DNA from: Elusimicrobia bacterium GWC2_64_44 | GTDB lineage: Bacteria > Elusimicrobiota > Elusimicrobia > Elusimicrobiales > UBA9959 | Direction: 5' to 3' | DNA length: 64,000 bases | NCBI GenBank assembly: GCA_001799845.1 | Contig: MGUG01000031.1 | Location: 1-64,000 of the forward strand | Shown here: piece by piece, positions 58,020 to 62,585 of the stretch | Position numbering within the stretch: position 1 is the first letter of the stretch | How the letters are laid out: every line of letters starts with the position of its first letter | Made by a program: the position numbers and the translations under genes | Notes under the pieces: model-generated | Database searches by the model: none | The model's input: only the letters and a program-made list of their open reading frames with translations | Told to the model about the DNA's origin: nothing

Positions 58020-59057
58020 GTGAAGAAGACGATTTTACTGCTGCTGTTGGCCTGCGCCCCCCTCGGGGCGCAAGAGCTGATTCCCTATAACGCCGGCAAG
58101 AAATGGGGCTACGCCGCGCCCGGCGGCCGCCTTGCGATAGCGGCCCGCTACGACTACGCCGAGCCCTTCAGCGAGGGACTGGCCCTGGTCCGCTCCGGCG
58201 CAAAATACGGTTTTATCGACAGGGCCGGCAAAAAGGTCATCGCTCCGCAATACCAGTCGGCCGGCTCCTTCAGCGAGGGTTGCGCGCCGGTCAAGTCACG
58301 GGGGCTGTGGGGCTGCGTGGACAAGGCCGGCAAGACAGCGGTCCCCTTCGAATACGAGGCCCTGCTGCCTTTCCGCGAAGGCGCCGCCCCGGCCAGGAAG
58401 GGCGGCCGCTGGGGCCTGCTGCTGAAAGACGCCCGCGAGTTCCGCGGCGGCATCTACGACGAGATCTACCCGGTCAGCGAGGGCCTCGCCCGCGTGAAGA
58501 CCGGGGGCAAGTACGGCTACATCGGTCTCGACGGACGGGAGCTGGTGCCGCCGGTCTACGCCGAGGCTTTCCCCTTCAGCCGCGGCTACGCGGCCGCACG
58601 CCTCGGCGACAGGTACGGCTTCATAAACCGCGGCACGCTCGCCTTCAAGGAGCGCGCCTTCGTCTCCATAGGCCCGTACAGCGAAGGCCTGGCCCACGCC
58701 CAGGCGCTGGACTGGGAGGGCCGCTGCGGTTATATCGACGAGGATGGCCGCCAGGTCATCCTGGCCCTGTTCGCGATGTGCGGCTCTTTCGACGGGGGGC
58801 TCGCGCCCGCGCTCAAGGACTTCGAGGGCGGCTGGGGCTACATCGACAGGACCGGCAAGGCGGTCACCGATTTCAAATACGCCCGGGCCGCCGGTTTCCG
58901 CGGCGGGGTGGCGCGCGTGGAATACGAAGGGCGCGCTTTCTTCATAGACTCAAAAGGCTTCGAATATACCTCCGCCGCAATGAACAAAAAGAAGGCCGGA
59001 CCCAAAAGTCCGGCCCCCGCGAAGGCAAAAAGAAAGGCCCCGCAAGAAACCCACTGA
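58020..59057 (+). CDS. WG-repeat secreted protein
   Basis: A 345-aa protein starting at GTG, with no Shine-Dalgarno sequence and 17 bp after the CsgG-like gene, so translation is probably coupled. A short signal peptide ends at about residue 17 (LGAQ). Residues about 20-315 are eight or nine WG (KWG) repeats of 33-38 residues. Each has the form (K/R)(W/Y)G(Y/F)ID..GK.V....Y..A..FSEG.A.V, a beta-rich fold of unknown binding role. The last 23 residues (KKKAGPKSPAPAKAKRKAPQETH) are basic and unlike the repeats. They are encoded by DNA that forms the antisense small-RNA unit and an extra hairpin, so the tail may be incidental read-through. Confidence 0.85.
   Translation: MKKTILLLLLACAPLGAQELIPYNAGKKWGYAAPGGRLAIAARYDYAEPFSEGLALVRSGAKYGFIDRAGKKVIAPQYQSAGSFSEGCAPVKSRGLWGCVDKAGKTAVPFEYEALLPFREGAAPARKGGRWGLLLKDAREFRGGIYDEIYPVSEGLARVKTGGKYGYIGLDGRELVPPVYAEAFPFSRGYAAARLGDRYGFINRGTLAFKERAFVSIGPYSEGLAHAQALDWEGRCGYIDEDGRQVILALFAMCGSFDGGLAPALKDFEGGWGYIDRTGKAVTDFKYARAAGFRGGVARVEYEGRAFFIDSKGFEYTSAAMNKKKAGPKSPAPAKAKRKAPQETH
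58983..59015 (-). terminator. Third minus-strand hairpin with U-rich tail, inside the WG gene
   Basis: GGCCGGAC (58994-59001) pairs perfectly with GTCCGGCC (59008-59015) around a 6-nt loop. Read on the minus strand it is followed by TTCTTTTTG, nearly the tail of the two small-RNA units. It has no promoter of its own and may be a back-up terminator. Confidence 0.6.
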
Positions 59058-59073
59058 GAGGGGCTGCGGGGCC
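59027..59073 (-). ncRNA. Candidate 47-nt small RNA, unit 1
   Basis: On the minus strand the predicted transcript starts at 59073 and folds as a 9-bp stem, GGCCCCGCA (5' arm, 59073-59065) with TGCGGGGCC (59044-59036). The stem closes a 20-nt interior and is followed by TTTCTTTTT (59035-59027). The interior differs from that of unit 2 at only two positions. Three stem pairs differ between the units, all with compensating changes, which is direct evidence for a selected RNA fold. It overlaps the last codons and stop of the WG gene in antisense. It could instead be one of several tandem terminators of the metH operon, but its own promoter argues against that as the sole role. Confidence 0.7.
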
Positions 59074-59079
59074 AATGAT

Positions 59080-59107
59080 AGTATAGCAGATGTCCTTGAC
59101 TTGTCAA
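59080..59107 (-). promoter_or_regulatory. Promoter of small-RNA unit 1
   Basis: On the minus strand a perfect TTGACA (59107-59102), a 16-bp spacer ending in TGC, and TATACT (59085-59080). The expected start, 7 bp on, is the first base of the stem. The -35 lies in an inverted repeat CCTTGAC/GTCAAGG (59094-59109, 2-bp gap) absent from unit 2, a possible operator. Confidence 0.78.
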
Positions 59108-59150
59108 GGGTCAATTTTCGCCAAAAACGCCGCGCTATTCTTCCTTACAC

Positions 59151-59197
59151 AAAAAGAAAGGGCCCCCGAGAAACCCACTAATAGGGGCCGGGGGCCC
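59151..59197 (-). ncRNA. Candidate 47-nt small RNA, unit 2
   Basis: Same layout and exactly the same length as unit 1, 124 bp upstream of it on the minus strand. A 9-bp stem GGGCCCCCG (59197-59189) with CGGGGGCCC (59168-59160) closes a 20-nt interior (GCCCC...AGTGGGTTTCT). It is followed by TTTCTTTTT (59159-59151), identical to unit 1. It lies wholly between genes. The inner CCC/GGG can pair further, leaving a small apical loop. No known RNA family was recognised. Confidence 0.72.
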
Positions 59198-59203
59198 ATC
59201 CAT

Positions 59204-59231
59204 AGTATAGCAGACCAATTCCGGCTGTCAA
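59204..59231 (-). promoter_or_regulatory. Promoter of small-RNA unit 2
   Basis: On the minus strand a perfect TTGACA (59231-59226), a 16-bp spacer ending in TGC, and TATACT (59209-59204). Spacing to the stem (7 bp) is identical to unit 1. The 13-bp block TCTGCTATACTAT is shared by both promoters. Confidence 0.78.
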
Positions 59232-59235
59232 GGCC

Positions 59236-59283
59236 CAAAAAAGTCCCACGTCAAGCCCCTATCGAGGCTTCGCCTCGATAGGG
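59236..59283 (-). terminator. Hairpin terminating the prfB-tatD-metH operon
   Basis: A perfect 12-bp stem (59257-59268 with 59272-59283) with a 3-nt loop abuts the stop codon of the MetH-activation gene. Six T follow 15 bp after the stem on the minus strand, so termination may be imperfect or the hairpin may protect the 3' end. Confidence 0.7.
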
Positions 59284-60069
59284 TTAGACGCCGAAGTAAA
59301 CGGCTTTGGGGTTGTGAAACACGATGGCGGAAACGGATGCCTCGGGGTCCATCATGAAGCCGTCCGTCAGCTTCACGCCCGCGTCGGGCTCCGGCCGCAG
59401 CAGGTCGAAGAGGCCTTTCTGATTGGCCAGGTCCGGGCAGACAGGGTAACCGAACGAGTAGCGCTTGCCGCGGTACTTGCTGCGCAGCAGCGGCCGCGCC
59501 GGGCTACCCTCGGCTATCCCCCAATCCTTGCGGATGCGGTAATGGATCACGTCGGCGAACGCCTCGGCCAGCGTCAGCGCCAGCGCCTCCATCAGATATG
59601 AGCGCACGTAGTGGCCGGCCTCGCGCTCGCGGCGCGCGAACTGCAGCACGCCCTCGCCGCAGGTGACGGCGAACAGGGCGAGATAATCCTTCTTGCCGGT
59701 CTCGGCCGGCGCGGCGAAGTCGGCCAGGCAGAGCCGGTCGCCGGCGGCCTGGCGCGGGAAATTAAAGACCGCGGCGGCCGCGCCGTCGGGGCCGTAGAGC
59801 CGGAGCTCGTCGCCGTAGGAGTTGGCCGGGAAGAAGCGGTATACGCCGCGCGCCTTGATGAGCTTGCGCTCTATGATCTCGTCGCGCAGCACGGCCAGCA
59901 GCGCGGCGGCCTCGCGGCGCTTCTGCTCCTGGTCCTTCTTCAAGCCCAGGAAGCGCAGGTTGAACAAACCCTCGTCGAGGTTCTCGAACAGCTCCGGCAG
60001 CGGCTGGTCCACGAAATGGCGCTCCAGGTCCGCGGGGACCGGGATATCCGGGGGCAGGAAGTCGGGCAT
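59284..60069 (-). CDS. MetH reactivation-domain protein (stand-alone)
   Basis: A 261-aa protein corresponding to the C-terminal AdoMet-binding activation domain of cobalamin-dependent methionine synthase. In E. coli that domain is part of MetH and reductively remethylates oxidised cob(II)alamin. The C-terminal block RGKRYSFGYPVCPDLANQKGLFDLL and SVSAIVFHNPKAVYF matches the conserved AdoMet-binding region (RxSFGYPxCPD in this form), and the YRFFPANSYGDELRLY segment (about 76-91) matches the domain start. Its ATG overlaps the stop of metH (TAATG), so the two are made together and presumably assemble as a split enzyme. Separate activation proteins of this kind occur in several deep-branching bacteria. 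Confidence 0.87.
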   Translation of the reverse strand: MPDFLPPDIPVPADLERHFVDQPLPELFENLDEGLFNLRFLGLKKDQEQKRREAAALLAVLRDEIIERKLIKARGVYRFFPANSYGDELRLYGPDGAAAAVFNFPRQAAGDRLCLADFAAPAETGKKDYLALFAVTCGEGVLQFARREREAGHYVRSYLMEALALTLAEAFADVIHYRIRKDWGIAEGSPARPLLRSKYRGKRYSFGYPVCPDLANQKGLFDLLRPEPDAGVKLTDGFMMDPEASVSAIVFHNPKAVYFGV

Positions 60070-62585
60070 TATTTCGCGGCTCCCAGCTTCAGGGCGTAGT
60101 TCAGGCCCTCCATGGCGTCCTTCGCGTAGAAGACCGGCCCGCCGTAATTGGGGACGATGTTAGCCTCGGTGAACCTGGGCGTCAGCGCGGCGCCGCCAAC
60201 GAGCAGCGGGCAGCTCACGCCGGCCTTCGCCAATTCGCGCGCGGTAATCGTCATCTGCTCGCAGGAGCGCACGAGCAGGCCGGAGAGGCCTATGAAGTCC
60301 GGGCGCGACTTCGCGGCCGCGGCGGCGATCTCTTCCGGCGGCACTTTCACGCCCAGGTCCTCCACCTCGAAGCCGTTGCTCTCGAAGATGATGTTGACCA
60401 AATTCTTGCCGATGTCGTGCACGTCGCCCTTCACGGTGGCCAGCAGCAGGCGGCCGCGCTTGGGGGCTTTCTGCTCTTTGAGCGCGGGTTCCAGCGCGGT
60501 CACGGCCGCCTTGGCGGCCTCGGCGCTCTGCAGCACTTCGGTCACTATCAGGTCGCCGCACGCGAATTGCTTGCCGACCTCGGCCATGGCCTGCATGACA
60601 GGACCGTTGATGATCTCCAGCGGGCCCTGCGTCTTCAGCAGCTCAGCCACGGCCTCGGGCACGCCGGCGCGGAGGCCGCCCAATACGGCCAGGCGCAGCA
60701 GCTCCGCCGGGGGCGCGTCTACGGGCGCGGCGGCGGACGCCGGCCCCTTTTTGGCGTCGCGGTAGCGCGCGGCGAAAGCCGCGGCGGCGTCGGGCTTGCG
60801 GGCGAAGACCAGGTCCTCGGCCAGCTCCCTCTCGTCGGCGGGAATGGCCGACCAGCGCTTGAGTTTCTCGATATTCACGATGGCCAGGTCCAGCCCGGCC
60901 TTCACGGCGTGATGCAGGAACACGGAGTTAAGCACCTCGCGGCTGGCCGGCGGCAGGCCGAACGAGACGTTGCTGACGCCCAGCACGGTCTTCACTCCGG
61001 GGAATTCCTTCTTGATGGTCTCTATGGCCTTGATGGTCTCGTGCGCGGTCTTGGCGTGCTCGCCGCCCACCGCCACCGGGAACACCAGCGTGTCGAAAAC
61101 GATGTCGCCTGGCTCCAGGCCGCACTCCTGGGTGAGGAAAGCGTAGGCGCGCCGGGCGATAGCGAGCTTGCGCTCCGCGTCCAACGGCAGCCCGTGCTCC
61201 TTGTCGGCGTCGATGCAGCCGAACACGAGCTTCGCGCCGTAAGTCCTGGCCAGCGCGGCCGCCGCGCGCGGCTTCTCGAGGCCGAACTCGAAATTGACGG
61301 AGTTCAGCAGGGCCTTGCCGGGCACCAGCTTCAGCACCTCTTCCATGACCTCCACGCTGGTCGTGTCGGTCATCACCGGCAGGCGCACGGCGCGGGCCAG
61401 CTTCGGCACGAAGGTCTTCACGTCGGCCAGCTCGTCGCGCTCCGGGTTGGCCAGGCAGACGTCCAGGATATGCGCGCCGGCCGCGGCCTGCGCCTTGGCC
61501 AGCGTCACCGCGCCGTCCCAGTCGCCGGCGGCCACCATGTCGCGGAATTTCTTGGAGCCGATGGAATTGTTGCGCTCGCCCACCATGGCGGGCGGCTCTA
61601 TCTCGTCGAAGAACAGGGCCTCCACGCCCGAGACCACCCACGGCGCGGCGGCGCGCGGCGCGCGCGGCTTCACGCCTTTCACGGCTTCGGCCAGCGCCTT
61701 GATGTGGGCGGGGGCGGTGCCGCAGCAGCCGCCGGCGGCGTTCAGCAGGCCCTGTTTCGCGTAGCCGGCCATGACGGCCGAGAAGGTCTCCGGGGTCTGC
61801 AGGTAGCGGCCGTTCTCGTCGGGCAGGCCGGCGTTGGGCATGGCGAAGACCGGGAACTGCGCGCGCGCGGCCAGGCGCTCGAGGCGCAGGCCCAGGCCTT
61901 CGGGCCCGGTGGAACAGTTGAAGCCTATGGCCGCGAGCGGGAAATGCTCCACGGCGGCGAAGAAGGCCTCGGCGTCGTGGCCGGAGAGCATCTTGTTGCG
62001 CTCGTCCATGGTGGCCGAGACTATCACCGGCAGCTCTTTGCCGGCTTTCTTGAAGGCCAGGCGGGCGGCGGCCAGTCCGGCCTTGAGGTTCAGGATGTCG
62101 TGGGCCGTTTCCAGCAGCAGCAGGTCGGCCCCGCCGTCCACCAGGGCGGAAAGCTGCTCGAGGTAAATATCCCGCAGCTCGTCGAAGGAGAGCCCGCCCG
62201 TGACGAACAGGGCCTTGTTGGTGGGCCCCACGGAGCCGGCCACATAGCGGCGGCCGGCGCCGGCATACTTGTCCGCGGCGGTGCGGGCCAGTTTCATGGC
62301 GGCCAGGTTGAACTCGCGCACGCGGGCCTGCAGGCCGTACTCGGCCAGCACGGCGGCGTTGGCGCTGAAGGTATTGGTTTCTATGAAGTCGGCCCCGGCT
62401 GCGAGGTAATCCTCGTGGACCTTCAGTATCGCGTCGGGCCGCGTCAGGCACAGCATCTCGCCCAGCCCGTCGTGCCCGGCGTAATCCGAGTCCTTCAGGC
62501 CGAAGCCCTGCAGGTAGGTGCCGGTGGCCCCGTCGAAGATCGGGATGCGCTCCGCGAACATTTTCTTTATCTCGTTTGAGCTCAT
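60069..62585 (-). CDS. metH: Cobalamin-dependent methionine synthase lacking the activation domain
   Basis: An 838-aa protein that transfers methyl from 5-methyltetrahydrofolate to homocysteine through cobalamin. An N-terminal homocysteine-binding barrel (about 10-300) holds the zinc ligands Cys224 (FNCSTG) and Cys287/Cys288 (GGCCGT). A pterin-binding barrel (about 320-590; GERNNSIGSKKF, VLGVSNVSFGLP) follows. Then come the B12-binding cap and Rossmann module (about 630-838), with the DVHDIG motif whose His723 is the lower axial ligand. The fourth (activation) domain is encoded separately just downstream. There is no cobalamin riboswitch before it, since only 7 bp separate it from tatD. Confidence 0.95.
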   Translation of the reverse strand: MSSNEIKKMFAERIPIFDGATGTYLQGFGLKDSDYAGHDGLGEMLCLTRPDAILKVHEDYLAAGADFIETNTFSANAAVLAEYGLQARVREFNLAAMKLARTAADKYAGAGRRYVAGSVGPTNKALFVTGGLSFDELRDIYLEQLSALVDGGADLLLLETAHDILNLKAGLAAARLAFKKAGKELPVIVSATMDERNKMLSGHDAEAFFAAVEHFPLAAIGFNCSTGPEGLGLRLERLAARAQFPVFAMPNAGLPDENGRYLQTPETFSAVMAGYAKQGLLNAAGGCCGTAPAHIKALAEAVKGVKPRAPRAAAPWVVSGVEALFFDEIEPPAMVGERNNSIGSKKFRDMVAAGDWDGAVTLAKAQAAAGAHILDVCLANPERDELADVKTFVPKLARAVRLPVMTDTTSVEVMEEVLKLVPGKALLNSVNFEFGLEKPRAAAALARTYGAKLVFGCIDADKEHGLPLDAERKLAIARRAYAFLTQECGLEPGDIVFDTLVFPVAVGGEHAKTAHETIKAIETIKKEFPGVKTVLGVSNVSFGLPPASREVLNSVFLHHAVKAGLDLAIVNIEKLKRWSAIPADERELAEDLVFARKPDAAAAFAARYRDAKKGPASAAAPVDAPPAELLRLAVLGGLRAGVPEAVAELLKTQGPLEIINGPVMQAMAEVGKQFACGDLIVTEVLQSAEAAKAAVTALEPALKEQKAPKRGRLLLATVKGDVHDIGKNLVNIIFESNGFEVEDLGVKVPPEEIAAAAAKSRPDFIGLSGLLVRSCEQMTITARELAKAGVSCPLLVGGAALTPRFTEANIVPNYGGPVFYAKDAMEGLNYALKLGAAK

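Follow-up and report, generated by a model that had tools for sequence, protein, structure and literature searches.

The analyzed window, a 64,000-nucleotide stretch of the genome of Elusimicrobia bacterium GWC2_64_44, carries on its minus strand two 47-nt units, here called unit A (at 59151-59197) and unit B (at 59027-59073). Direct reading and alignment confirmed that they lie 124 bp apart, as the initial annotation had described. A convergent gene for a WG-repeat protein (58020..59057, plus strand; PF14903, E 5.6e-70) overlaps unit B in antisense with its final codons. On the other side, unit A comes after a split metH gene: the methionine synthase activation domain (PF02965) is encoded upstream and co-directionally at 59284..60069 (minus strand), with its end 87 nt upstream of the hairpin of unit A, and the methyltransferase and B12-binding part is encoded at 60069-62585. 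A perfect palindrome, CCCTATCGAGGCGAAGCCTCGATAGGG, follows the metH-side gene at 59257-59283; similar palindromes were seen at three other loci (L018, L084, L156), which would fit a dispersed repeat.

Both units have the same layout, in which TTGACA, a 16-bp spacer ending in TGC, TATACT, and 6 bp are followed by a hairpin and the tail TTTCTTTTT. The promoter layout, the hairpin placed with its first base at the expected +1, and the identical tails that had been claimed for these units were all recovered. In unit A, direct reading and the promoter scan placed the -35 hexamer at 59226..59231 and the extended -10, (TGC)TATACT, at 59204..59209 (both minus strand). Upstream of the -35 lies a T-tract, GGGACTTTTTTGGG (59234..59247, minus strand), which may be an UP-like element and which occurs in varied forms at many, not all, other copies. 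The unit A hairpin (59160..59197, minus strand) has a 9-bp outer stem, a 3'-side bulge, an inner CCC/GGG stem, and the apical loop CUAUUAGU; its tail occupies 59151..59159 (minus strand; direct reading and terminator scan). By the same evidence, unit B has its -35 hexamer TTGACA at 59102..59107, its extended -10 (TGC)TATACT at 59080..59085, and its tail at 59027..59035 (all minus strand), and folding and covariation define its hairpin at 59036..59073 (minus strand), with the apical loop CUCUCAGU. The unit B -35 is overlapped by a dyad, TTGACAAGTCAA (59096..59107, minus strand), that would be operator-like in function.

The promoters of units A and B each scored 11/12 in the promoter scan. Four promoter-like sites were found in 500 bp, compared with a mean of 0.2 in shuffled sequence, two of the four being shifted registers of the units' promoters; terminator-like sites in the 500-bp scan numbered three against 1.0 in shuffled sequence. 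Two interior matches occurred in none of 100 shuffled windows. Between the two aligned units, stem pairs 3, 7, and 9 (of 9) are different, with every change compensated, and the interiors are identical at 18 of 20 positions, both as previously noted. A third, diverged copy is present elsewhere in the same genome (G000:C7:61405-61450).

Distribution of the hairpin family

The interior pattern CCCCTNTNAGTGGGTTTCT, with at most one mismatch, was searched in 101 genomes and matched at 22 places in 15 of them; each of these 15 belongs to the genus of the window, which counts 32 genomes. A tighter pattern run against a species-genome collection returned 15 stretches, each corresponding to a contig of an already matched genus genome, and in viral contigs the interior pattern was nowhere matched exactly. 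Two covariance models, R1 (22 hairpins, promoter excluded) and the wider R2 (63 hairpins), matched 42 of 340 genomes of the phylum at E ≤ 1e-4. By genus, matches at this cutoff were found in 32/32 genomes of the window's genus, 3/3 of g11, 4/4 of g12, 1/2 of g3, and 1/4 of g8; the unit in the second g3 genome (G033) was found via its promoter. The initial annotation had named a lack of further copies in related genomes as one refuting outcome, and a model of the hairpin alone found such copies in every genome of the genus and in four further genera of the same Elusimicrobiota family. Most genomes carry 1-3 copies, these counts being minima, as at least one more unit (G002:C78, L184) was missed by the models. 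The sole match outside the family at E ≤ 1e-4 (G060) is a plain terminator, and it was rejected together with four other weak model matches of 29-34 nt, likewise plain terminators with neither promoter nor interior. These units form a well-supported small-RNA family that appears to be new for Elusimicrobiota.

The earlier statement that the units belong to no described family agrees with Rfam 15, in which none of the matches in the window reaches its gathering score. The best sub-threshold match is ctRNA_p42d (RF00489), the countertranscribed RNA of repABC plasmids, which scored 20.3 bits where the family's gathering score is 50; its model represents an antisense RNA class and, with 46 positions, is close to the units in length. 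6S RNA (RF00013) is small and structured like the units and acts in trans, but its model spans 187 positions against their 47, and it had no match in the window and none in 59 genomes, in a search of limited candidates in partly incomplete genomes. Terminator-hairpin sRNAs bound by Hfq or ProQ end in a 3' hairpin and U-tail, a feature that the units share, though neither protein was found in the searched genomes (see below). In size and shape the nearest RNA is RNAII of plasmid pMV158, in which a single 8-bp stem with a 1-nt bulge carries a small apical loop and is joined by a 3' stretch rich in U. RNAII is plasmid-borne and pairs with its target through a 17-nt single-stranded 5' tail, whereas the units have no 5' tail and lie at several loci. 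As to the target relationship typical of RNAII or ctRNA, no 13-nt site other than the units is shared at one gene among 16 genomes, and many genomes have the 3' end of the WG-repeat gene across from the units or next to them.

The hairpin RNA family is apparently undescribed before. Small RNAs of Elusimicrobiota seem hardly described in general, and the titles and abstract openings of the literature on Elusimicrobia or Elusimicrobiota RNAs, most of whose subscription papers lay outside the scope, contained no description of this hairpin RNA; nor did the accessible parts of PMC4485353, PMC10117718, and PMC12456014.

Conservation of the promoter and the RNA fold

A promoter of the form TTGACA-N16-TCTGC-TATAMT is recognizable upstream of every full-length copy examined, and it was no part of the model with which the copies were found. 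In a set of 60 units, which like alignment A6 leaves out four weak matches (E from 0.00096 to 0.0043), TTGACA was present at fixed spacing in 58, CTGC in 57, and TANAMT in 59, the exceptions being recognizable variants. All 15 further full-length units have the promoter as well, abutting the hairpin in 13 and separated from it in two (g3 and g8) by an extra 5' hairpin. Such an extra hairpin of ~25-30 nt, between promoter and main hairpin, was seen at L149, L177 (g3), and L178 (g8).

Pairwise identity was 0.98-1.0 in the -35, 0.89-0.92 in the extended -10, 0.85 and 0.87 in the two outer stem arms, and 0.94 in the tail, compared with 0.42-0.50 in the discriminator, 0.37-0.38 in the spacer, and 0.27-0.31 in the flanks. 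The identity of 0.94 in the interior comes from 22 units that were chosen by the interior pattern and is in part an effect of that choice; promoter, stems, and tail are outside that pattern. Flanks and spacer are at the level of random sequence, and conservation is confined to the promoter boxes, the hairpin, and the tail.

The 20-nt interior had been described as conserved. Its identity between the units holds, while folding indicated that most of it is base-paired as an inner hairpin, formed by CCC/GGG and two apical pairs with a bulged pyrimidine, with a small 3'-side bulge below and an apical loop of 7-9 nt. Folding of the 47-nt units gave z-scores of -3.2 and -4.7, which fell to only -1.6 and -3.1 with 101-nt context. 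The fold energy is ~ -26 kcal/mol and few bases stay open, namely one apical loop, the small bulge, and the U-tail.

In alignment A6, fitted to the covariance model and comprising 53 distinct sequences, 97.6% of the cells are paired and 9 of the 15 pairs show changes on both sides (83 cells); each of these measures was reached in 0/500 shuffles. Sliding the partners left at most 56.7% paired and at most one doubly changed pair. In the ungapped MAFFT alignment A3, 99.6% of the cells are paired, with six doubly changed pairs (1/500 shuffles). The number of further pair types was less extreme, being matched in 25/500 shuffles for A6 and 40/500 for A3. Covariation is mostly in the outer stem; within the inner helix three of six pairs are invariant, one alternates between U-A (27 rows) and C-G (23 rows) with good support, and at the G-U pair that closes the helix 13 of 53 rows have G-A. 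Departures from Watson-Crick pairing in the outer stem comprise 28 G-U, 1 A-C, and 2 A-A cells, and the excess of G-U over A-C indicates that the folding molecule is the RNA of this strand. Selection on RNA structure, previously read from the conserved interior and the covarying stems, is thus upheld by nine doubly changed pairs and a G-U-biased outer stem.

The apical loop reads exactly YUNUNARY (8 nt) in 51 of 79 units (21 with UUAUAAAC, 25 with CUNUYAGU, and five others). Most of the remaining loops are variants with 7 or 9 nt (UUAUCAAAC and AUUAAAC are examples), and two of the 79 units could not be parsed. The pattern stays constant while the letters vary among CUNUYAGU, UUAUAAAC, and AUAUUAAC, and this persistence looks like recognition by shape. 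Within the subfamily of units A and B the interior is nearly fixed (22 copies, picked by the interior pattern). An IRE-like or anticodon-like loop was considered and dropped, given that the letters of the loop are not constant and that the pair next to it shows covariation.

In general, the promoter is conserved together with the RNA, compensatory changes fall on the strand predicted to be transcribed, and other genomes share the unit. The proposal of an independent small-RNA gene with its own conserved promoter and compensated structure holds up, and its status as an RNA gene is well supported at the level of sequence. A conserved RNA gene may thus need little DNA, with a promoter and a single hairpin that would be both product and terminator.

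Possible roles and the shared promoter class

We tentatively favor, at close to an even call, a self-terminating gene for a structured RNA of ~47 nt that acts in trans and is most likely recognized by an RNA-binding protein. RNA polymerase would start at the first G of the hairpin and stop at the U-tail, giving a blunt stem with a paired 5' end. From usually 1-3 loci per genome, the RNA would act in trans by presenting a conserved shape, a 7-9 nt loop, mostly YUNUNARY, on the CCC/GGG stem with its small 3'-side bulge; a protein may recognize this shape, and the RNA may sequester or guide that protein. Loop letters that vary within a fixed pattern, together with the lack of a shared 13-nt complementary site, favor protein recognition over long base-pairing.

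In searches that scored limited candidates in partly incomplete genomes, Hfq was detected in 0/59 genomes (36 in the family; 5/14 controls were positive) and ProQ in 0/32 (20 in the genus; the E. coli control was found). A KhpA-type KH domain was found in 32/32 genomes. Because Hfq and ProQ were not found, KhpA is a candidate partner, as a lead only; the domain was also found in 10/14 controls (6 over the cutoff) and so says little as evidence for a partnership. In other bacteria KhpA, together with KhpB, is reported to interact with sRNAs (PMC12456014). Very small, with its own promoter and clear covariation, and present in every searched genome of the genus, the family offers a handle on post-transcriptional control where Hfq and ProQ were not found.

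Less probable, and yet the closest competitor to protein recognition, is a base-pairing sRNA whose CCCU/loop region and/or U-rich bulge would pair with short mRNA sites such as Shine-Dalgarno sequences, with no Hfq and perhaps with help of the KhpA/KhpB type. The apical loop is exposed, the near-fixed interior of the A/B subfamily, seen in pattern-selected copies, could also mean base-pairing, and the KhpA-type domain with its reported sRNA interaction elsewhere (PMC12456014) would fit. Against this, few bases are open at this fold energy, a single-stranded 5' tail is absent, and the loop is not the same between paralogs.

The 13-nt complement of the interior, with 11 fixed letters, was searched in 16 genomes and found at 31 places, 24 of which are the units themselves and seven of which lie elsewhere in three genomes. 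In the window's own genome it occurred only at the two units. Six of the seven other places were read (for one of the four G010 copies there was no locus) and represent four distinct contexts: a gene end (G015), an unidentified stretch (G005), and two that cover ribosome-binding sites (G005:C31 and a repeated gene in G010). In the latter two (L217 in G005; L206, L224, and L226 in G010) the complement spans AAAGGAG(G) just before ATG. None of the four contexts was common to two of the 16 genomes, and none recurred at the same gene. The suggestion that the interior is an open antisense seed was therefore not borne out as worded, since it is mostly paired and has no orthologous second site in these genomes; the protein-binding site named as the other option is the mechanism tentatively favored here. 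The proposed check for complementary mRNAs gave a mixed outcome, with no site in the own genome or shared between genomes, and two of four contexts over ribosome-binding sites. These two contexts slightly raise the weight of base-pairing and slightly lower that of protein recognition, although AAAGG is common in ribosome-binding sites anyway.

The gene that recurs next to the units is the convergent one for a WG-repeat protein (PF14903). Tallied by hand, 24 of 29 testable genomes of the genus have a unit that adjoins or overlaps its 3' end (n = 32; G008 and G020, with cut contig ends, and G021, with no WG match, were left out), and the linkage also holds in 4/4 genomes of g12, 2/2 of g3, and 1/1 matched genome of g8. 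This adjacency might mean a role in cis, in which the RNA is antisense to the 3' end of the WG mRNA or its transcription blocks convergent read-through. The linkage persists even where the units have a different gene on their other side, and a transcript in the window would be antisense to the last codons of the WG mRNA. We nevertheless consider such a device unlikely. In five of the 29 genomes no unit lies next to the WG gene (G003, G014, G016, G024, G031), the WG gene was absent among the nearest neighbors of the seven fetched g11 units, and 8/60 units come after a gene with two ABC ATPase domains. Moreover, neither antisense pairing nor blocking needs strand-specific covariation of an inner hairpin. 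The linkage may reflect function or inherited gene order.

The units occur in varied surroundings. For 47/60 of them, ORFs called in this analysis put the end of a co-directional gene no more than 130 nt upstream, and the hairpin can therefore double as the terminator of that transcript. An insulator made of a strong terminator and a promoter, with an RNA that has no function of its own, would fit this proximity and seems very improbable. An ordinary intrinsic terminator is a stem and U-tail alone, and the five fetched plain terminators lack both interior and promoter, whereas the units have both; their inner helix, bulge, and loop pattern are maintained with compensatory changes, and no insulating purpose is evident for a strong promoter that points at a terminator 38 nt from it. 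A DNA hairpin element of the REP-like, attC-like, or mobile-repeat kind, which the presence of multiple copies, partly in tandem, at separate loci might recall, was rejected as scarcely credible given the strand-specific wobble, the conserved promoter, the low copy number, and the lack of an exact interior match in viral contigs.

The exact promoter pattern occurs at seven sites in the own genome. Three belong to the hairpin-RNA family, two precede c-di-GMP-I riboswitches, one precedes a second hairpin RNA, and one a protein gene. The two riboswitches, with the small-RNA promoter pattern upstream, are at L143 and L144 (G000:C35). Among 15 non-duplicate riboswitch loci, 11 have the dyad TTGACNNGTCAA at a distance of 22-25 bp upstream of the -35, in one it overlies the -35, as in unit B, and three are without it. 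The combination of dyad and promoter class suggests transcriptional control in common. More speculatively, the protein-recognized RNA would be a lineage-wide Elusimicrobiota regulator, encoded by a gene of ~80 bp in genomes with no Hfq or ProQ detected and presenting its YUNUNARY loop and bulge to a dedicated protein; its promoter class and operator-like dyad recur at the leaders of c-di-GMP riboswitches and at another, unnamed RNA, and it could thus be part of a c-di-GMP-linked network of non-coding RNAs, a doubtful reading at present.

In many members of the promoter class TTGACNNGTCAA sits at one of two places, on the -35 itself or 22-25 bp farther upstream, which suggests one regulator acting at two positions. 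The second conserved RNA of this class was seen at L120 (the same as L141; G000:C3, minus strand), L116, L126, L139, and L159, loci with no Rfam match. It consists of a hairpin, GGAGCGGAACACCUUAUCGACGGUUGCCUUCCGCUCC in varied form, a linker GAGGGAGACAG, and another hairpin, and TTGACNNGTCAA lies 23 bp upstream of the -35 in 5/5 loci. A third putative RNA with the same promoter, at L125 and L138, has a hairpin like GTGGACGCCGTATATCGGCCTCCA and, after it, a strong terminator. Repeats resembling UAGGCCCNNNGACCUAUUG and GGACNNNAGACC were clear in the leaders at L148 and L154 and weaker in that at L114.
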